Translations under genes and position numbers: made by a program | Part shown: piece by piece, positions 7,367 to 18,462 of the stretch | Position numbering within the stretch: position 1 is the first letter of the stretch | Layout of the letters: every line of letters starts with the position of its first letter | The notes under the pieces: generated by a model | Told to the model about the DNA's origin: nothing | Databases searched by the model: none | Seen by the model: the letters and a program-made list of their open reading frames with translations, nothing else | Origin: Fructobacillus tropaeoli | GTDB lineage: Bacteria > Bacillota > Bacilli > Lactobacillales > Lactobacillaceae | Direction: 5' to 3' | Assembly: GCF_001047135.2 (NCBI RefSeq) | Contig: NZ_DF968079.1 | Span: forward strand, 176,663 to 240,662 | Length of the DNA stretch: 64,000 nt

Positions 7367-8401
7367 ATGACGAAAGCAAAAGTAAGCGACCTCGACTTTA
7401 AGAACTTGGGTTTTGGTTATCATGACTTGCCCTACCGCTATAAGGCAGAATACCACGATGGTCAGTGGCAGCCAGGCGAATTGACGACTGATTCAACCAT
7501 CCATTTGAGCGAGTCAGCCGTTGCCTTGCATTATGGACAAGAAGTCTTCGAAGGTTTGAAGGCCTACCGTCGTAAGGATGGTGGCGTGAACATCTTCCGC
7601 CCCGACCGTAACGCCCATCGAATGCATAACTCAGCAGAACGTTTGTTGATGGCTCCATATCCAGAAGATAAGTTTGTTGAAGCGGTGAAGGAAGTTGTGA
7701 AGGCCAACCAAGACTTCATCCCTCCTTACGAATCTGGTGGTTCTTTGTACTTGCGACCATTGTTGATTTCAACTTCACCTGAAATTGGTGTCCACCCCGG
7801 CCACGACTTCTTGTTCACCATCTTTGCCATGCCAGTTGGTGCTTACTATCCAGGTGGTTTGGCCCCAACGGCCTTTGTGACTTCTGAATTTGACCGTGCT
7901 GCTCACGGTGGAACAGGACAAGCCAAGGTTGGTGGTAACTATGCCGCTTCCATGTTGCCTGGTGACAACGCCCACAAGGCCGGTTATTCCGATGTTGTCT
8001 ACTTGGACCCACGCGAACACGAGTATATCGAGGAACTCGGTTCTGCCAACTTCTTTGGAATTACCAAGGATGGCCAGTTCAAGACACCAAAGTCACCATC
8101 AATTCTCCCTTCCGTTACAAAATACTCACTCTTGGCCTTGGCCGAAGAAATGGGCATGAACCCAGTTGAAGAAGCCATTTCCATTCATGATTTGGATCAA
8201 TTTGCTGAAGCCGGAGCCATGGGAACAGCGGCCGTGATTTCGCCCGTTGGTTCCATTACCCACGAAGGCAAGAAGCATGTCTTCTTCTCAGAAACTGAAG
8301 TTGGTCCAAAGACCCAAGCTCTCTATGACCGCTTGATTGGTATCCAATACGGTGACCAAGAAGGTCCTGAAGGTTGGGTGCAAGACGTACCTTTGGTCTA
8401 A
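7367..8401 (+). CDS. ilvE: Branched-chain amino acid aminotransferase
   Basis: PLP fold-type IV enzyme moving the amino group between Leu/Ile/Val and 2-oxoglutarate; cytosolic. About 344 aa. Signatures are HYGQEVFEGLKAYRR with an arginine-containing substrate loop, the PLP-lysine segment GQAKVGGNYAASM (Lys near residue 187), and the class-IV motif ELGSANFFGI further on. The ATG at 7367 has RBS GAAGGAG; an upstream in-frame TTG would place the RBS inside the coding region. Monocistronic, with its own promoter and a strong terminator. Codon use is highly biased, suggesting good expression. Confidence 0.95.
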   Translation: MTKAKVSDLDFKNLGFGYHDLPYRYKAEYHDGQWQPGELTTDSTIHLSESAVALHYGQEVFEGLKAYRRKDGGVNIFRPDRNAHRMHNSAERLLMAPYPEDKFVEAVKEVVKANQDFIPPYESGGSLYLRPLLISTSPEIGVHPGHDFLFTIFAMPVGAYYPGGLAPTAFVTSEFDRAAHGGTGQAKVGGNYAASMLPGDNAHKAGYSDVVYLDPREHEYIEELGSANFFGITKDGQFKTPKSPSILPSVTKYSLLALAEEMGMNPVEEAISIHDLDQFAEAGAMGTAAVISPVGSITHEGKKHVFFSETEVGPKTQALYDRLIGIQYGDQEGPEGWVQDVPLV

Positions 8402-8460
8402 TACCCGCTTATTCAACTTATAAAATCAGGTTACCCAAATAAAACATTTGATGTCCGATT

Positions 8461-8496
8461 AATCAGAACGAGCCGCGAGGCTGGTTCTGATTTTTT
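8461..8496 (+). terminator. Terminator of ilvE
   Basis: AATCAGAAC/GTTCTGATT stem followed by TTTT. The right arm contains the recurrent heptamer CTGATTT. Confidence 0.88.
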
Positions 8497-8506
8497 ATGT
8501 GCAAAA

Positions 8507-8535
8507 ATAAAAATCCCAGCCTAATGGCTGGAATT
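8507..8535 (-). terminator. Terminator of the small membrane protein gene
   Basis: Minus-strand CCAGCC-ATTA-GGCTGG followed by GATTTTTATTTTT, four bases past the 8539 stop and back to back with the ilvE terminator. Confidence 0.75.
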
Positions 8536-8538
8536 AAT

Positions 8539-8889
8539 TTAACTTTGCTTTTGGTAGGTTGCCCCTGTTACATCACTAATGAAGGTCCGGTGGTTCTTGG
8601 TAACCGTAGCCTTTGATGTCACACCGTCGCTTCCTTCAAGGGTCAGTTTGTTATCCTTGAGCCGATACTTAACCGTCATCGTCTTTTGACCGTCCGAATA
8701 AATCGTCGCCTGATCGCCCTTAAAGGTCATTGTCACCTCAGCGTTCATATCCCGGTAACTTCCTGACAGGTGGGTTTGCTGGTAGGTAATCTTTTGGTAG
8801 GCCAGTTCAGCCAGCAAGACTGCTAATAGTCCAACCACGACCGTGACAACTCCTCGCCTTTTTTTCAAAACAAGTAAAAATTGCTTCAT
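8539..8889 (-). CDS. Small membrane-anchored extracytoplasmic protein, unknown function
   Basis: 116 aa. A basic N-terminus (KKRR) precedes one transmembrane helix near residues 12-30. An outside domain of about 85 aa follows, rich in short beta-forming stretches (HLSGSYRDMNAEVTMTF, KTMTVKYRLKDNKLTLEG). No lipobox cysteine is present, so it is anchored by the uncleaved helix. The tail resembles small lipocalin-like or copper-amine-oxidase-like secreted domains of lactobacilli, but I do not recognise a family. It is divergent from the two-component system and shares its 224-base upstream region, so it may be a target of that system; this is inference only. Confidence 0.7.
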   Translation of the reverse strand: MKQFLLVLKKRRGVVTVVVGLLAVLLAELAYQKITYQQTHLSGSYRDMNAEVTMTFKGDQATIYSDGQKTMTVKYRLKDNKLTLEGSDGVTSKATVTKNHRTFISDVTGATYQKQS

Positions 8890-9113
8890 CCAACTCTCCT
8901 TAGGGCCAAATCAGAATTAGTTAACCCTTTCTCATCTGTTACGCTCATCTTACCACACTCCTGCAGACCTTTTGCCGAATTTTTGTCCGAAGGAGAATCA
9001 TTCTTTTCTGAAAAAATTTCAGAAAGCAATTAGTTAAGATTAGTATCGAAAAGAACCAAGTCGCGGTATCCTAGAACTAAAATCAAAACCCATTTTATGA
9101 AGGAAAGAGACAA

Positions 9114-9815
9114 ATGGAGACCAGATTACTACTTGTCGAGGATGAGGAAGGCTTGGCCGATTCCCTCTCCACCGAATTTCAGCTAGAAGGCATCCAAGTG
9201 ACCCAGGCTCACGATGGCCTGGAAGCCCTGGAAATTTTTAATGACCAACCAGATCAATTTGACGTAATCATCTTAGATTGGATGCTCCCACGCCTGGATG
9301 GCTTTAGCGTTTTACGCAAAATCCGCAAGGAAAGCGATGTCCAGATTATTATGCTGACGGCCAGGGACTACATTGGTGATAAGTTGGCCGGCCTGACCAA
9401 CGGTGCCGATGACTATATCACTAAACCCTTTGAAACAGAAGAACTCCTGGCGCGCATTGAAATCGCCAAACGCCATGGCCAACGACCTCTTGAGGAAAAT
9501 CAGGAACTGCGGGTTGCTGATTTAATTGTCGATATTAAGAAAAAAAGAGTCTCGGAAAACGGCATTATCATCCCCCTCACCCAGCGAGAATTCGACCTTT
9601 TGGTTGTGCTGATGAACCATGAAAACGAGCCCTGCTCCCGCGATTATCTCTTGGACACCGTCTGGGGGATTGACTTTGAGGGCCAACCAAATATCCTCGA
9701 TGTCTACATTAAAAATCTCCGCAATAAACTCGACCAGAATGAAGACCAGCCAAAGCTGATCCATACCATTCGCGGTACGGGCTATATGCTTTCGGCCAAC
9801 GTTTCTCATGGCTGA
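9114..9815 (+). CDS. OmpR/PhoB-family response regulator
   Basis: 233 aa. Receiver domain residues 1-120 with acidic pair E9/D10, phosphoacceptor Asp55 in ILDWMLPR, the Thr in MLTARD and conserved Lys104 in YITKPF. A winged-helix DNA-binding domain covers about 130-230 (LTQREFDLLVVLMNH and the C-terminal IHTIRGTGYML hairpin). RBS GAAGGAAAG precedes the ATG. It is paired with the histidine kinase at 10013, but separated by an unusual 197-base gap of 39-bp repeats beginning at its stop codon. The signal is unknown. The downstream PAP2 and polytopic membrane genes suggest an envelope-related stimulus. Confidence 0.95.
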   Translation: METRLLLVEDEEGLADSLSTEFQLEGIQVTQAHDGLEALEIFNDQPDQFDVIILDWMLPRLDGFSVLRKIRKESDVQIIMLTARDYIGDKLAGLTNGADDYITKPFETEELLARIEIAKRHGQRPLEENQELRVADLIVDIKKKRVSENGIIIPLTQREFDLLVVLMNHENEPCSRDYLLDTVWGIDFEGQPNILDVYIKNLRNKLDQNEDQPKLIHTIRGTGYMLSANVSHG

Positions 9816-9977
9816 TTAATCGGCACAGCAATAGCTGGCGATGCCGGCAACTGATTTGTTAGCACAGCAATGGCTGGCGGTGCCGACAACTGATTTGTCC
9901 GTAATCATAGCGCCACGTCTCCCAACAGCTGATTCGTCTGCACCCATAGCCTAGCCCAAGGCGCCCAACAGCTGATT
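9812..9977 (+). repeat. Tandem imperfect 39-bp repeats between response regulator and kinase
   Basis: CTGATT recurs at 9812, 9851, 9890, 9929 and 9972, giving spacings of 39, 39, 39 and 43. Units 1 and 2 agree at 32 of 39 positions. Units 3 and 4 share CTGATTYGTC, CATAGC and CCCAACAG with each other. Because 39 is a multiple of three, each of the first four units places a TGA in the frame of the response regulator; the first is its actual stop codon. Three of the five unit starts extend to CTGATTT. Confidence 0.85.
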
Positions 9978-10012
9978 TTCCAAGACACAAAGTCAATGAA
10001 GGTACCCCACCA

Positions 10013-11419
10013 TTGATCAAAAATAAAAGGCCAAAGAAAAATAAACAATCCAGCGCCAGCATCATGCTCCGCAGCCAAATCAAAATGATTATCGTCATCA
10101 CCATCTCTTTTAGCCTGATGATGATTTTTGGCGTAGGCCATAAGCTCCTAAACGATGTGAAGCTCTCAACCTGGCAGATTACCGCCAGTCTGAAGAAAAA
10201 TGAAATTGATAGCGACCATGATTGGGATGATTGGCGAAAAAACAGTACCGTGGATATTAACCATAGCTATATTTACGTCCATAACCTGCGCCAAGATGCC
10301 GAAGCCAGATATTACTTCTCACCGCGAGCCGATGACCTCTTGCAAAAGAAGATGATTAAAGTGCCCTTTATCAATAACTTGTATTATCGGCCAGGCTTTG
10401 GCTTTCTCTACCGACGCTTTGTTTCTTCCAATGGCATTTACTACACCCTATGGCAAAATATCGGTCCACAACTCTCCATCTTAATGCGTGTGATTGAAGT
10501 CTCAGCCATTTTGCTCGCCGTCACTCTGGTTCTCGCCCCCATCTACATTCGTCGGTTAACCGCCAGATTAACGGACCCGCTCACCGACCTGTCAACTAGC
10601 ACCCAAGTGGTCCACCAAGCAGAGCAATCTGGTCTAATTCAACTGCCTGTTCCCAGTCAGCCAACCGAGGTCACGGAACTTGCCCAAGACTTCAACCACC
10701 TGCTCGCTCTCCTCAACCAACGACAAGACCAGCAGAAGCTCTTTGTCATGAACGCTGCTCACGAGCTGCGCACGCCAATTGCCACCATCAAGAGTCATGC
10801 ACAATTAATCGACCGCCATGGTGCTGACCATCCAGAAATTATTGAAAAATCAGTGACCTACATCACCAAAGAATCACGGGCAATGCAGCAAATTATCGAA
10901 GACCTTCTGGCCATTCTGCGCGTTGAAACGCTGTCATTGGCATTAACGAGGATGAATGTCACTACGGCTGTCAGCGAAATCATGCAACCATTAGAAAAAA
11001 CAATTCCTCAAAAACTGATTTTACAGCTAGAACCCAACTTGATGGCGCAGACCAACTTGGAGGCCCTCGAGCAGATTCTGCACAATTTGATTCAAAATGC
11101 TAGCAAGTATTCAAAACCCTCAGACCCAATTGTCGTTACGCTTTCGAACAAGGAAAATGGTTCTGTGGCTCTCACGGTGATGGATCAGGGCTTGGGTATT
11201 CCAGAGGCCGATAAGGCACATATTTTTGAGCATTTTTATCGCAGTGACGATGTCCGTGGCTCCATCCCCGGAACCGGCCTTGGCCTGGCCATTACCAAGC
11301 AGTTCGTTGACCTGATTCACGGGCATTTGTCCGTAGCCGATAATCCGACTGGTGGAACAATCTTCACCCTTCTGTTGCCGAGTGCTATTGATACTACCCA
11401 CCAAAGCGGCCATTCGTAA
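10013..11419 (+). CDS. Sensor histidine kinase
   Basis: 468 aa. TM1 lies at about 24-42, followed by an extracytoplasmic sensor region of about 115 residues with no recognisable domain. TM2 is at about 158-180, then a HAMP linker and a HisKA domain with phosphoacceptor His250 in NAAHELRTPIATIK. The HATPase_c domain carries NLIQNASKYS (N box), VMDQGLGIPEAD (G1) and PGTGLGLAI (G2). The start is a TTG at 10013 behind GAAGG at 9998-10002; the first in-frame ATG is 17 codons later and would leave TM1 nearly unchanged. Partner of the upstream response regulator. A terminator follows. Confidence 0.93.
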   Translation: MIKNKRPKKNKQSSASIMLRSQIKMIIVITISFSLMMIFGVGHKLLNDVKLSTWQITASLKKNEIDSDHDWDDWRKNSTVDINHSYIYVHNLRQDAEARYYFSPRADDLLQKKMIKVPFINNLYYRPGFGFLYRRFVSSNGIYYTLWQNIGPQLSILMRVIEVSAILLAVTLVLAPIYIRRLTARLTDPLTDLSTSTQVVHQAEQSGLIQLPVPSQPTEVTELAQDFNHLLALLNQRQDQQKLFVMNAAHELRTPIATIKSHAQLIDRHGADHPEIIEKSVTYITKESRAMQQIIEDLLAILRVETLSLALTRMNVTTAVSEIMQPLEKTIPQKLILQLEPNLMAQTNLEALEQILHNLIQNASKYSKPSDPIVVTLSNKENGSVALTVMDQGLGIPEADKAHIFEHFYRSDDVRGSIPGTGLGLAITKQFVDLIHGHLSVADNPTGGTIFTLLLPSAIDTTHQSGHS

Positions 11420-11448
11420 TCATTGATTCACATTGGTAGCATTCCTTT

Positions 11449-11472
11449 GCCACCCTTTTGGGTGGCTTTTTT
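11449..11472 (+). terminator. Terminator of the two-component system
   Basis: GCCACCC-TTTT-GGGTGGC followed by six T, 29 bases after the kinase stop. The remaining 235 bases before the next gene show no other clear feature. Confidence 0.92.
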
Positions 11473-11707
11473 AGTCCAATAAAAGGTTGACCTTCCTTGG
11501 TCTAATTTGGAATTTAATCGATTTCACGTCATGTTACGATTGCTTACTGTCACCATCAAACCAGCCATCGCTCCATTTCACAGACTGTTTACCGTCCAGC
11601 CCGCCTGTCCCATTCTGAAAAAAATTAAGCTTGGCCTTATTTTTCATAAGTAGTTCAAGATGCATATGCCAACTAAACTATTTGGTATACGTTTCGGAGG
11701 AAATACG

Positions 11708-12376
11708 ATGAAAAATAAACAAAAAACACTCTTAAGTTTCGCCCTTATTCTAGCTTTCGCCATTCTAGCTCTCGGCGTCTTGACCAATTCACCAGCCATT
11801 ACGACTTTCGATTCAACGATTAGCCAAAGCACGGCCAAATTAGTGACACCCACGAATACCGCTTTTTTTACCGTCGTAGCCGACCTGGGCAGCCCACTCG
11901 TGGCGATTACACTGACCGTCCTACTGGCTGGCTACGTCTTCTACAAAAAAGACCGCTTCCTAGCTTGTTGGATCATTTTACTCCAGTTCGGCGGTTCCGC
12001 ACTGACTGAAATCATCAAGGTGACTATTGCTAGGCCTAGGCCCAGCCATCAAATCATTGCTGATACCGGTTTTAGCTTTCCAAGTGGCCACACCTTTTGT
12101 ACGACAATTTTCGTCATTTGCCTGCTGATGGTCGTTTTGCCAAAGATTCCAGTGGACAGTCGCTACTACGTGATTATCCCTGCCTGCACTTGGATTATTT
12201 TAGTGGCTTTTTCACGTTTTTACCTGCGTGACCACTACCCATCAGACGTTCTCGCTAGCCTGCTCCTAGCAACTGGATTGTGGTTGCGACTAGAAGGTTA
12301 TCGCGACCTCCTGCATCAAGCTGCGACTGCCTTTTTAACCCGACGGCAAGCGCGTGCTTTACCAAGTAAAAACTAG
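11708..12376 (+). CDS. PAP2-family membrane phosphatase
   Basis: About 222 aa, five to six transmembrane segments. The three catalytic phosphatase motifs are intact: KVTIARPRP, the loop with PSGH (SFPSGHTFCTT), and SRFYLRDHYPSD. Enzymes of this type dephosphorylate undecaprenyl pyrophosphate or phosphatidic/phosphatidylglycerol phosphates at the outer face. The ATG at 11708 has a consensus RBS (CGGAGG, 7-base spacing); an ATG 48 bases upstream lacks one. It lies between a two-component system and a large GT-C-like membrane protein, consistent with an envelope role. The exact substrate cannot be read from sequence. Confidence 0.88.
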   Translation: MKNKQKTLLSFALILAFAILALGVLTNSPAITTFDSTISQSTAKLVTPTNTAFFTVVADLGSPLVAITLTVLLAGYVFYKKDRFLACWIILLQFGGSALTEIIKVTIARPRPSHQIIADTGFSFPSGHTFCTTIFVICLLMVVLPKIPVDSRYYVIIPACTWIILVAFSRFYLRDHYPSDVLASLLLATGLWLRLEGYRDLLHQAATAFLTRRQARALPSKN

Positions 12377-12538
12377 TCTAAACGAAAACAGTACACTTCC
12401 TGATTTTTTATCGATGAACCACAGTACCGCTGTCAGCGTCCTTCGCATTTTTTTATGATTCAAGCAAGACGCTGCCCATACATAAACAAATAACTGATTG
12501 ATCTCAATTCAGTCAATACGAAAGGTATCGCCAGCACC

Positions 12539-14518
12539 ATGTCAATCACATCCAAAAGCCACAGGCCCTATTCCCTTTTGGCTGTCCTACTTGCCCTCTG
12601 CCTCATTATTGGTAGTACCGGTAGTTTTAGTTCACAAACATCACTCGCCATTGTCAGCACCACCGTCTTGCTCCTGATTGCAAGCTACTACCTGCGACCT
12701 TTTTTCAACCGCTTGAGCATCCGCCAAATCAGAACTATCACCTACCTAGCCCTGACGTTAATGGTTATCGGCCAGGTGCTGATTCTGATTTTTCTGCCGG
12801 TGTCCGTCTACCACGACCCTTACCGGGTCCTGTCCCAGGCTGATCAACTGGCTGCTGGTGACCACGTCTGGCAAAGTACCTATTTCTGGCGCTACCCCAA
12901 CAACGTTCCAATCACCTACATCCTGTCCAAATTCTTTGCGCTGGGTCAGCTCGCGCATCTATCCAACAACATCACGATTCACCTACTCACGATTAGCCTA
13001 CTCGACACCTTCATTGTCTTAGTCTTGAAGACCTGTGCTGACCTAAAGAGTCGTCAGAGCACCTTCTTAGGCCTTCTAGCCTTTCTGACCGCAACACCCT
13101 TTGCCTACACTTATTACCTCCAGGTTTTTTATTCTGATTTGCCAGCCATGTTGGCCGTCCTAGTTATTTTCCGCCTTCTTTGGCGCTGGCCAAAAGCTAA
13201 CACGACCAAGTCCAAAGTTAAAATCAGCCTGGGACTCAGTATCGCGGCGCTGCTTGGCATGCTGATGAAGCCGAATATGATTGTCTTGTTACCTGCTGGA
13301 CTGTTAACACTACTGATTTTGGCCATCAAAAAAGAACGGACAAAAAAGCAATTGTTGCTCCCGATTATTTGCTTAAGCTTGGGGATGGCCCTAGCGATTA
13401 TTCCAGGCACCCTCTTAATTGACCATGCCAGCTCCTATCAGCCACATAGTGCCGAAGCCTTTCCTGCTAGTCATTGGGTCTTAATGGGCCTCAATAAGAG
13501 TGGAGATGGCATGTACGATGACCAAGACGTCGAAAAGGATATCAGCCTAGCGAACGCCTCTGCCCGCCGACAATATGATAGTCAACAAATTGTTCATCGA
13601 ATTCAAACGCTCGGTCCATTGGGTCTCAGTGAACTCTGGCTGAAAAAATTAACAATTTTGTTAGACGTCAGCGCCGTCCAAGACTGGTATAACGGTGGCT
13701 TTGAATCGGCTCCAAAATGGTATCAAGACCATATTGCCTTTTATCAAAAAGCCATTAAAATCGGCTACGTTGTCGCTTCGATCATTCTCTTTTTCACGGT
13801 TAGCCTCCGTCTGCTATGCTGGCGACCACGCTTTCATCGTCAAAAAGACCAACTAGCTCTGCTAGCTGTTTTAACCGCCTTGGGTTATCTGGCCTTCCAT
13901 GTTATCTTTTGGGAAGCTGAATCACGTTATGGGCAAAGTATCCTACCAGCTCTTTTCGTCCTTCTAGTCGCTTTACCAGCCCCTGTCGTCCGTCGACAAA
14001 AGGTTACTAAGGTTAAAAGACAAAAACACTGGCCTCGTGTGGCCTTTCTCATTTCGGCAACCATTGCCATCTATGCCGTTTTCCTTCAGTCCTACTCGCT
14101 ATCCACCATTGTTGTGGCCGCACAACGGAGTCAGCTGTCCGTTCAATACCACGCTCAGCCAACGACTATCAGCCCCGGCACAACGCTTGAGCAACAAGTT
14201 AATTTAGCCAAACCCGCTAATACTTTCTCAGTTCAAATCCAAGCCAAGTCAACCATGACTGTCACACTCCAAAACCTTCAAAGCGGCCAAGTTTGGACCT
14301 TAACAGAAAAGGCCGATGAGTTTATCCTAAACCAGCCCCTTCCCGCAGGCTCTTACCAGATTGTCATTCAAAACCAAGGACTGGTTCCCCAATTAATTGA
14401 TTTAGTTCAAACCAACAATTACACTTTGGCACCTTTTCCGGTAACCATTAACCAGGTTGAAAATAAAAACGCCTCGCTGATTTACCTCTTTGAATGGCTC
14501 AATACGAAGTCATCCTAA
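12539..14518 (+). CDS. Large polytopic membrane protein, GT-C glycosyltransferase-like
   Basis: 659 aa with about 11-13 hydrophobic segments up to about residue 530. A C-terminal domain of about 120 residues, predicted beta-rich and outside the cell, follows (TTISPGTTLEQQVNLAKPAN and VWTLTEKADEF). The first large loop after TM2-3 carries a DPYR motif and a WRYPNNVPITY motif, the place where GT-C (PMT/ArnT-like) enzymes keep catalytic acids. It resembles conserved integral membrane proteins of lactobacilli and streptococci thought to use polyprenyl-linked sugars. RBS is weak (AAAGGT, distant). It is convergent with the KAP gene. Confidence 0.65.
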   Translation: MSITSKSHRPYSLLAVLLALCLIIGSTGSFSSQTSLAIVSTTVLLLIASYYLRPFFNRLSIRQIRTITYLALTLMVIGQVLILIFLPVSVYHDPYRVLSQADQLAAGDHVWQSTYFWRYPNNVPITYILSKFFALGQLAHLSNNITIHLLTISLLDTFIVLVLKTCADLKSRQSTFLGLLAFLTATPFAYTYYLQVFYSDLPAMLAVLVIFRLLWRWPKANTTKSKVKISLGLSIAALLGMLMKPNMIVLLPAGLLTLLILAIKKERTKKQLLLPIICLSLGMALAIIPGTLLIDHASSYQPHSAEAFPASHWVLMGLNKSGDGMYDDQDVEKDISLANASARRQYDSQQIVHRIQTLGPLGLSELWLKKLTILLDVSAVQDWYNGGFESAPKWYQDHIAFYQKAIKIGYVVASIILFFTVSLRLLCWRPRFHRQKDQLALLAVLTALGYLAFHVIFWEAESRYGQSILPALFVLLVALPAPVVRRQKVTKVKRQKHWPRVAFLISATIAIYAVFLQSYSLSTIVVAAQRSQLSVQYHAQPTTISPGTTLEQQVNLAKPANTFSVQIQAKSTMTVTLQNLQSGQVWTLTEKADEFILNQPLPAGSYQIVIQNQGLVPQLIDLVQTNNYTLAPFPVTINQVENKNASLIYLFEWLNTKSS

Positions 14519-14788: not shown

Positions 14789-16654
14789 TTATTCACTAAA
14801 CTTGCTTAAAATTTCTCTTAAGGTTTTGAGCAAGTTTCTCAGGTTAAACCTATCAATTCGTCCGATATCTAGTGACTCATTTATAAACTCTTCAACTTTT
14901 TGAATTAGCTCTGATATATCCGCATTTTCTCCCGAATGAAAGTCCTTAGAATTTGTTATCCGAATGTACTCATGGTGCAGATACCGATCTAGTAAATTCG
15001 CCTTTGAGCCAGCAGTGAGAAGTTCAGAATCTAATTGACTAGAATCCAAAATTTCGCGAAAAATATTTGCATTTAAACCGGACTGTGTGAAGTCACGCAT
15101 CAACTCATAGTTATCATCAAAAATTGCAGTGACTAACTGTTCGGTTTGCAATTCATGCTTTGCTTTATCTCCGGATTCTAATATGTCACGAACTCGTTTC
15201 AGGATATCGTTATCCGTTGCAATCACAGAGTACATAAATCCGATATCTCCACGATCGTAAGTAGGCTTATTTTCAAGTACTGCTTTATTGACCGCGTTTT
15301 TTAGCGACTCTAACAGGACTGCTAAATAATCCTCCTTGCAAAAATATAAATCACTCTGATCAAAGAACAAGAAATTATTAATTGTCGACAAGACATCTTT
15401 GATTGAAATATCCGGTTTCTGTACGTCATTGAGTAACTGCCGTTCAAGCTCTTCAAGCTGCTTATCAGTCATTTCTCTAAAATTTGCGACCTTGTCCAAG
15501 CTAGATGCCTTTCCTCTTGGTCTAAACAATTGTATCCATGACTTGATGAAACTTGCTGCGTCAAAAACGCCACTAAAAACAGCTTCATTAACTGAATTAT
15601 CATACATAATAACTTGTTTCAGATTGGTGTCATCATGATATTTAAGCGTGATTTTTTCTGCTAGTGACTTTTCTTCATCGTCCTTCATATGCATAAAGAA
15701 AAAGCTACGAGTATTGAGAATCTGAGCAATCAACTCAAGATTTTCACGAGTCAACTTACCTTGACGATATTCCGTTGCAATCACAAATAAGTTTGCAAAT
15801 ACCGAGCGTTTAATCTGAAGACCATCAACCTTGCCTTGCGTGTTGCTTTCCCAGTACTGATTTAGCTCCCTGTCAATGATCGTAAATGTAGTCAGAATAA
15901 ATTCCAACGTTCTTAAGTTAATTTGCTCTCCATTACGTCGAGCGTGGTCAGCAACGATTTCCACAAGCCATTCTGAGTCCTCTTGTAAGAAACGATTGCC
16001 TGAGCCCTGAAAGAACTCTTGTCTGATATTGTTAAAATCGTAAGTAAAGGGAAATATCCGACTTACGACCTTCTCGCGAGTCATATTAAACTCGTTGATT
16101 TCATCATCCCGAATTTCCTTAGCGTTACCGACAACAATTACCCTATATCCATACGTCTCAATAATGTCAGTAAGCAGAAAACCAATTAAATCCGACGTGT
16201 GGATATCTCGACTAATACGTTCTAAATCATCAATAATTAAAACCGGAGATGAATCTAGTACTTGAGAGCGTAATCGCTTATTAATTACATAGTTTTCGGT
16301 TGTTGCTGCTAGTGTTTTAAAAGTCGCAAACTTATCCCAAACAGCTCCACCTACTTCATTAACAATAGACACTATGTCCTGGGTTTTGAATTGATCTTCT
16401 TTGTCTTGATTCTTACCAAAGCTAGAGATGAATAATTTCCCAATTAATTCTGACTTTAACTTTGCCAGCGATTCATATCCATACACAGAGAAATAAACAA
16501 CCTTATGTTCCCCACAGATATGCGGTACCACAGTATTCTTTAAAAAATAAGTTTTACCGGAACCCCAAGGCCCATCAATCATCACTGCAAACTGATCGTC
16601 ACTGTTAACATAGTTCGATAAACTTTCGAGCAACTGACTATTTTCCAAATTCAT
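14789..16654 (-). CDS. KAP-family P-loop ATPase, possible defence protein
   Basis: 621 aa. Walker A GPWGSGKT at residues 28-35 and Walker B VLIIDDLER at 138-146 match the KAP/STAND-like NTPase group. Further ATPase elements lie to about residue 220 (YRVIVVGNAKEI sensor strand, VVSRIFPFTYDF). The rest, about 400 residues, is helical with acidic and Leu-rich segments and no recognised domain. Unlike classical KAP proteins I see no transmembrane pair between Walker A and B, so it looks cytosolic. Codon use is much more AT-rich than either neighbour, a sign of transfer. It is a single gene; no nuclease, toxin or partner lies beside it. KAP ATPases occur in phage-defence loci, but function here is inference. 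Confidence 0.8.
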   Translation of the reverse strand: MNLENSQLLESLSNYVNSDDQFAVMIDGPWGSGKTYFLKNTVVPHICGEHKVVYFSVYGYESLAKLKSELIGKLFISSFGKNQDKEDQFKTQDIVSIVNEVGGAVWDKFATFKTLAATTENYVINKRLRSQVLDSSPVLIIDDLERISRDIHTSDLIGFLLTDIIETYGYRVIVVGNAKEIRDDEINEFNMTREKVVSRIFPFTYDFNNIRQEFFQGSGNRFLQEDSEWLVEIVADHARRNGEQINLRTLEFILTTFTIIDRELNQYWESNTQGKVDGLQIKRSVFANLFVIATEYRQGKLTRENLELIAQILNTRSFFFMHMKDDEEKSLAEKITLKYHDDTNLKQVIMYDNSVNEAVFSGVFDAASFIKSWIQLFRPRGKASSLDKVANFREMTDKQLEELERQLLNDVQKPDISIKDVLSTINNFLFFDQSDLYFCKEDYLAVLLESLKNAVNKAVLENKPTYDRGDIGFMYSVIATDNDILKRVRDILESGDKAKHELQTEQLVTAIFDDNYELMRDFTQSGLNANIFREILDSSQLDSELLTAGSKANLLDRYLHHEYIRITNSKDFHSGENADISELIQKVEEFINESLDIGRIDRFNLRNLLKTLREILSKFSE

Positions 16655-16771: not shown

Positions 16772-16822
16772 AAAAAATCCCCGCCAACTCAGCCCTCATT
16801 CGGCCCAAACTTGGCGGGGATT
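16772..16822 (-). terminator. Terminator after guaA
   Basis: Minus-strand AATCCCCGCCAA ... TTGGCGGGGATT followed by TTTT; GC-rich 12-bp stem with a 23-base loop. Confidence 0.85.
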
Positions 16823-16823
16823 C

Positions 16824-16852
16824 TGGCGGGGAACGTAACAATTTCCCCGCCA
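16824..16852. repeat. Second GC-rich hairpin sharing the guaA terminator stem sequence
   Basis: TGGCGGGGAA/TTCCCCGCCA with a 9-base loop, separated by one base from the terminator. Its arms are complementary to the terminator arms, so the two hairpins can exchange partners. Confidence 0.75.
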
Positions 16853-16920
16853 ATCATATCCTTTGTATATTCCGAAAATGCCGTCAAATCAACATTCCGG
16901 TTTCGATTTACATATACCTT

Positions 16921-18462
16921 TTATTCCCATTCAACCGTTGCAGGTGGCTTAGCGGTAATGTCGTACACGACGCGGTTAATGTGATCCACTTCGTTGACAA
17001 TTCGTGAAGAAACCTTTTGCAACACATCCCATGGCAAGCGGGCAAAGTCCGCTGTCATACCATCAACAGAAGTGATAGCACGGACGGCAATCGTGTATTC
17101 GTACGTACGGTAATCACCCATGACACCAACAGACTTGTTGTTTGTCAAGACAGTGAAGTACTGCCAAACATCACCTTCCAAACCGGCCTTGGCGATTTCA
17201 TCGCGCAAGATAAAGTCGGATTCACGGACAGTTTCCAACCGGTCCTCAGTGATTTCACCCATGATTCGGATACCAAGACCTGGTCCTGGGAATGGTTGAC
17301 GCCAGACCAACTCGTGGTCCATTTGCAACTCTTCACCCAAGGCACGAACTTCATCCTTGAACAACTTGTTCAAAGGTTCGATCAAAGTAAAGTTCATTTC
17401 TTCAGGCAAACCACCAACGTTGTGGTGTGACTTGATTGTTTGGGCCGTATCCGTACCAGATTCAATCACATCCGTGTACAACGTTCCCTGGGCTAAGAAG
17501 TCAACGTCCTTCAACTTGATGGCTTCATCGTTGAAGACTTCGATAAATTCGTTACCGATAATCTTACGCTTTTGTTCTGGATCAGTAACACCAGCAAGCT
17601 TTGACAAGAAACGATCCTGTGCATCAACCTTGATGATGTTCAAGCCAAACTTGCCACCCAACATGTCCATCACTTGTTGTGCTTCGTTCTTACGCAACAA
17701 ACCATGATCAACAAAGATACAAGTCAATTGGTCGCCAATAGCCTTTTGTAACAAGACACCAACAACAGATGAGTCAACCCCACCAGACAAACCAAGCAAG
17801 ACCTTCTTGTCACCAACTTCGGCGCGAATCTTTTCGATTTGTTCATCAATGAAACCAGCCATTGTCCAAGAAGCGTCTGCTCCAGCAATGTTGATGACAA
17901 AGTTTTTAATGATTTCCTTACCGTGTTCAGACAACGTTGTTTCGGAGTGGAATTGAACACCGTACAGACGGTCATCATCATTAGCAATCGCTGCAATTGG
18001 CGTCTTTTCAGAACCAGCAGCCACAACAAAGTTGTCAGGCAACCTTGTGACGTTGTCTGAGTGTGACATCAAAACAACTTGCTCTTCTGGTGTACCAGCA
18101 AAGAGCTTTGAAGGAGCAGTCTGCTTGATAACAGTCTGACCAAATTCCCCATTACCTGGGTTGGCTTCGACTTTACCACCCAAATGTTGGGCCATCAATT
18201 GCATCCCGTAACAAACACCCAAGACGGGAATCCCCAACTTGAATACTTCAGGGTCAATTGGATAAGCATCGTCATCATAAACTGATTTTGGACCACCCGA
18301 AAGGATAATTGCCTTAGGGTTGTATTCCTTAATTTCATCAATCGTCATCTTTGATGACTTCAATTCAGAGAAAACGCCGAGTTCTCGAACGCGTCGCGTA
18401 ATCAATTGGTTGTATTGGGACCCGTAGTCCAATACTAAGATTTTGTCATTACCTGTGGTCAT
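16921..18462 (-). CDS. guaA: GMP synthase (glutamine-hydrolysing)
   Basis: Converts XMP to GMP with glutamine as nitrogen donor, the last step of guanylate synthesis. 513 aa, standard length. An N-terminal class-I glutamine amidotransferase domain has the nucleophile motif [15 protein letters not shown], with QFHSE supplying the catalytic His and Glu. The ATP-pyrophosphatase domain has the PP-loop [12 protein letters not shown], and the dimerisation domain ends in the typical TVEWE. Three bases separate it from the IMPDH-like gene upstream, and the whole unit lies under the guanine riboswitch at 20675-20744, closing a product-feedback loop. Confidence 0.98.

Follow-up and report, generated by a model that had tools for sequence, protein, structure and literature searches.

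A probable lineage-specific minisatellite separating a response regulator gene from the adjoining sensor kinase gene in Fructobacillus tropaeoli

Bacterial intergenic minisatellites, or VNTR loci, are a general class of copy-number-variable tandem repeats. The array described here lies in a 64,000-nucleotide stretch of Fructobacillus tropaeoli DNA (the window; 45% G+C, from a genome of 1.68 Mb in 101 contigs) and resembles such loci in its head-to-tail arrangement, its units of tens of bases, its single intergenic place, and a copy number that differs between relatives. Unlike VNTR loci, its units have diverged within each class (~70–82% identical), and the difference in number is seen only between species; the within-class divergence suggests that present-day slippage is probably slow. 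The flanking genes lie in tandem on the same strand, like those of the coupled two-component operons treated in a 2025 review (PMC12548453) and a 2010 survey (PMC3018481), but they stand 197 bases apart (109 in the sister species), a distance at which coupling by reinitiation seems unlikely. The review describes coupling as most efficient at small distances, with an increase of <20 nt able to substantially cut efficiency; the survey gives 22.6% of same-strand two-component intervals as overlapping. On these figures, a spacer of 197 bases would be expected to free translation of the kinase from that of the regulator. Within a limited library and set of search terms, no publication was found that combines intergenic tandem repeats and two-component systems for lactobacilli, tandem repeats and two-component systems for Fructobacillus, or intergenic tandem repeats, VNTRs and operons.

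The two genes form an OmpR-family two-component pair, with a receiver and winged-helix regulator beside a HisKA/HATPase kinase (Table 1). Both match many NCBIfam models, but none of the matches listed (the best 25 of 97 and of 82) reaches its curated cut-off. As the earlier note had recorded, the gap between them is 197 bases (9816–10012) and holds an array in which CTGATT occurs five times, at spacings of 39, 39, 39 and 43 bases; four of the TGAs (9813, 9852, 9891 and 9930) share the regulator frame, which the fifth does not. The layout is A-A-B-B plus a partial fifth copy, which consists of CTGATT alone followed by an unrepeated tail. Units 1 and 2 (U1 and U2) are identical at 32/39 positions and units 3 and 4 (U3 and U4) in 30/43 alignment columns, and with CTGATT removed the likeness within each pair still exceeded that of 2000/2000 shuffles. 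Beyond CTGATT, classes A and B share only a weak likeness (p 0.004 to 0.17 over nine A–B pairs from both species). Of the 6-mers made up of three or more different bases, CTGATT and CTTTTG alone reach five copies within 166 bases on the plus strand of the window, and 9823–9898 has the top Tandem Repeats Finder score there (131; runner-up 50). A tandem unit within the ~10–100-base range, confined to a single place between genes, places the array among intergenic minisatellites or VNTRs.

Table 1. Features of the regulator–kinase locus (window coordinates).
Feature	Coordinates	Strand	Description
OmpR/PhoB-type response regulator	9114..9815	+	233 aa, stop TGA 9813; Pfam Response_reg 7e-27, Trans_reg_C 1.1e-26
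Unit 1 (U1)	9812..9850	+	Class A, 39 bases, starts 1 base ahead of regulator stop
Unit 2 (U2)	9851..9889	+	Class A, 39 bases, complementary to kinase start region
Unit 3 (U3)	9890..9928	+	Class B, 39 bases
Unit 4 (U4)	9929..9971	+	Class B, 43 bases
Fifth CTGATT	9972..9977	+	Opens non-repeated tail; tail present in sister species too
GAAGG, probable kinase Shine-Dalgarno	9998..10002	+	From sequence; sister-species counterpart AAGGAAGG
Sensor histidine kinase	10013..11419	+	468 aa from TTG; HisKA 5.6e-12, HATPase_c 9e-26

Across 13 genomes of the genus, one per species, the regulator was found at E 1e-60 or better in three: the own genome, a sister species (97%), and a farther congener (68%). 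The two-component pair may often be lost within the genus. Matches to the array (E 0.001 or better) were limited to two of the 13, the own genome and the sister species. The sister has three CTGATT copies spaced 36 and 36 bases in a gap of 109 bases, and its spacer reads A-B plus a partial copy, with the tail and the kinase TTG as in the window. One of its units corresponds to class A and the other to class B, so the window has each class twice and the sister once, and unit number varies between these relatives (four versus two, in one genome per species). In the farther congener, only 5 bases separate the regulator stop from the kinase ATG.

These comparisons bear on the earlier proposal of stepwise duplication, drawn from divergence between early and late units. 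Duplication itself is supported by the fewer units in the sister, their absence from the farther congener, and the A-A-B-B classes. Relatives did not share the identical single-copy spacers that had been named as speaking against expansion, in a comparison of species rather than strains; a contig scan for a close strain yielded at most 47% identity among the best 80 of 587 relatives. The two sister species are 92–95% identical in DNA over three aligned blocks (~20 kb), and in the alignment of 8000–12700 gaps are confined to the array, barring one single-base gap and a ragged end. Fourfold sites differ at 8% in the regulator (7/91) and 12% in the kinase (23/198). Between U1 and the sister's class A unit there are 5 substitutions in 36 bases, besides 3 missing bases, and class B is more divergent between the species than this. 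By this informal comparison, the pattern is one that little constraint combined with repeat turnover would give.

Stop-to-start spacing was also compared across the wider family. In a sample of 151 genomes, 44 carried the regulator at E 1e-60 or better, the own and sister genomes included, and from the 42 others 28 fetched loci (the best match of each) were examined. In 27 of the 28, the regulator stop is overlapped by a possible kinase start or has one ≤16 bases away, counting possible rather than annotated starts (24 loci by script, and L106, L119 and L120 read separately). One of these, L112, has an additional possible ATG at 31 bases; the 1494 bases searched at the remaining locus, L109, yielded no kinase. 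Together with the 5-base gap of the farther congener, these loci bear out the earlier view that the two genes are normally adjacent. Translationally coupled pairs overlap or lie within ~20 bases of each other, and both the window (197 bases) and the sister species (109 bases) fall outside that range.

Our data suggest that the array is probably a lineage-specific intergenic minisatellite that has no sequence-specific job and acts through its length, by hampering reinitiation-type translation of the kinase. All unit lengths except 43 are divisible by three, which was counted against a reading by length only. A CTGATT-based spacer would have become established downstream of the regulator stop and ahead of the kinase start before the sister species split. 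Later events would have added copies of ~36–43 bases in the window species (giving A-A-B-B) or removed them from the sister (leaving A-B); the simplest route would be slipped-strand replication, or recombination among units that carry CTGATT. Because the farther congener has no spacer, gain and loss of units cannot be polarised.

With a stop-to-start distance of 197 or 109 bases rather than an overlap or ≤16 bases, termination–reinitiation appears hardly feasible for the kinase, which would instead initiate from its own Shine-Dalgarno and TTG. The TTG at 10013 is the sole listed start upstream of the aligned kinase N-terminus, in the window and the sister species alike, and on sequence grounds is most likely the translation start. 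Duplexes of the Shine-Dalgarno with an assumed 16S tail come to -4.2 kcal/mol in the window, -8.7 in the sister, and -3.2 in the farther congener. Loss of translational coupling is the likeliest consequence of the spacer; kinase synthesis would then be independent and perhaps lower, and it is plausible that the spacer affects the kinase-to-regulator ratio in this way. If the uncoupling is real, the window species, its sister and the farther congener would form a natural series (197, 109 and 5 bases) for measuring how the kinase-to-regulator ratio depends on the distance from stop to start. Otherwise, the array would represent routine non-coding repeat growth within an operon.

Alternatively, U2 may pair with the kinase Shine-Dalgarno and start region (within 9991–10030), in competition with a local hairpin (9994–9998 : 10011–10015), in which case the number or the sequence of the units would adjust the proportion of kinase to regulator. 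We regard this as unlikely, although several observations agree with it. The duplex of U2 with the start region reaches -25.7 kcal/mol, a value that none of 300 single-base shuffles equalled, and that of U1 -15.7 kcal/mol (23/300 equally low). Outside the locus, a single other place (3 overlapping 39-mers) attained -25.7 among 21,237 plus-strand 39-mers sampled, and the kinase ranked second for upstream complement among 48 ORFs of 150 aa or more. Furthermore, the start region is paired at 0.66 in the window, as high as only 1/300 spacer shuffles (standard dinucleotide shuffles, with a stable outcome across two routines: 1/200, then 1/300), and its pairing with distant upstream bases is 0.29 (4/300 as high).

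Against this pairing, the complementarity is not conserved: the sister's class A unit gives -12.3 kcal/mol with its own start region (109/300 shuffles equally low), and the sister's start region is paired at 0.50 (137/300) and with distant bases at 0.10 (173/300). Neither the Shine-Dalgarno by itself (23/300) nor the start codon (258/300) is exceptionally paired in the window, and U3 and U4 pair with the kinase start no better than shuffles (295/300 and 270/300). On the minus strand, 26 of 21,321 39-mers attain -25.7; the eight strongest of these, at least, fall on the complement of this same region. The U2 complementarity was itself spotted after the fact. The fold of the whole spacer has a z of -0.92 in the window, and of +1.19 in the sister, neither of them unusually stable against shuffles. 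Rfam returned no match in the gap and a lone regional match outside it (E 4.4, far below its gathering score); a structured RNA leader or riboswitch was rejected on the absence of a better-than-shuffle fold in either species and of an Rfam match in the gap. The U2 complementarity and the start-region pairing hint at a sequence-specific role in this species, which counts against the length-only reading; as a pointer to control of how much kinase is made, we treat the complementarity as a lead, not a finding. Its bolder extension strikes us as quite improbable: the array would serve as an RNA rheostat still in evolution, class A duplication having produced in this species a U2 that covers the kinase start, and the balance of kinase to regulator would be reset by turnover of repeats instead of changes in the promoter, in a two-component system whose genes stay closely coupled in relatives.

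The repeats could also be candidate sites for the regulator or another protein, serving in feedback on an internal promoter or as a roadblock ahead of the kinase. A short motif repeated at regular spacing inside the regulator's own operon invites such a reading, which we nevertheless consider improbable to much the same degree. Unit spacing is 36 bases in the sister species versus 39/43 in the window, so helical phase is not kept between them, and promoter-like sites were absent from the gap in a consensus scan. Moreover, the part of the regulator upstream region that is identical in the sister carries an inverted repeat, TTTCTGAAA/TTTCAGAAA, rather than CTGATT. An internal promoter or terminator in the gap was rejected, no such site appearing in the consensus scan. 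The upstream inverted repeat, TTTCTGAAA-AAA-TTTCAGAAA at 9005–9025, falls within a stretch (~9003–9139) shared without change by the sister species, whereas 16 bases differ in the block 8960–9019; the inverted repeat is possibly an autoregulatory site or a terminator.

Base composition might point to a relic left by the insertion of a mobile or interspersed element (REP, BOX or MITE-like), since the array has 55% G+C versus 48% and 47% in the flanking genes. Such an origin is nonetheless very unlikely: the own genome has no second copy of the array, with next-best matches at E 0.09 over 17–22 bases, and no inverted repeat pair of at least 12 bases was found in 9700–10150. REP, BOX and MITE repeats occur as several dispersed genome copies, and the array was set apart from them on this account.

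Scarcely credible, finally, is the reading that stop-codon read-through extends the regulator by repeat peptides, or that a small protein is encoded within the spacer on one strand or the other: the four in-frame TGAs, the frame-keeping 36-base units of the sister, the three substitutions between U1 and the sister's class A unit at third positions of the regulator frame, and minus-strand ORFs of 81 aa (9859–10104) and 78 aa (9905–10141) across the spacer could be taken as signs of coding, but the TGAs are trivially in frame because the stop sits inside units of 36 or 39 bases, frame-keeping being a consequence of unit length; U1 and U2 differ in 6/12 codons, all six altering the residue (counted by eye); stops occur in all six frames of the window spacer; both minus-strand ORFs run antisense over the kinase 5' end; and the matching frames of the sister cross the spacer differently in a six-frame translation. 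Read-through, which the earlier note had raised, thus finds no support.

To place the array among other repeats, 320 kb of the own genome (519 N) served as a baseline, giving 19 Tandem Repeats Finder rows that collapsed to 15 places. Eight of these lie in stop-to-stop frames of >200 aa, five in frames of <80 aa, and two (periods 246 and 240) in no single frame, which suggests that most, though not all, large arrays in this sample are coding. A second CTGATT array (L148; G000:C4:112716-112889), with a 42-base repeat that likewise opens with CTGATT, lies at a serine/alanine-rich, surface-protein-like frame of the opposite strand and appears unrelated to the array at 9812–9977.

Two further observations concern the surroundings of the locus. 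A minus-strand ORF of 116 aa (8539–8889) matches nothing in Pfam or NCBIfam at E 0.001, and its part at 8540–8779 shows 6–13 differences per 60 bases from the sister species. Farther along, 157 bases (16773–16929) upstream of the minus-strand ORF 14789–16654 are 93.6% identical to a Furfurilactobacillus rossiae plasmid, the sole match in the window to a plasmid search, and may possibly reflect horizontal transfer.
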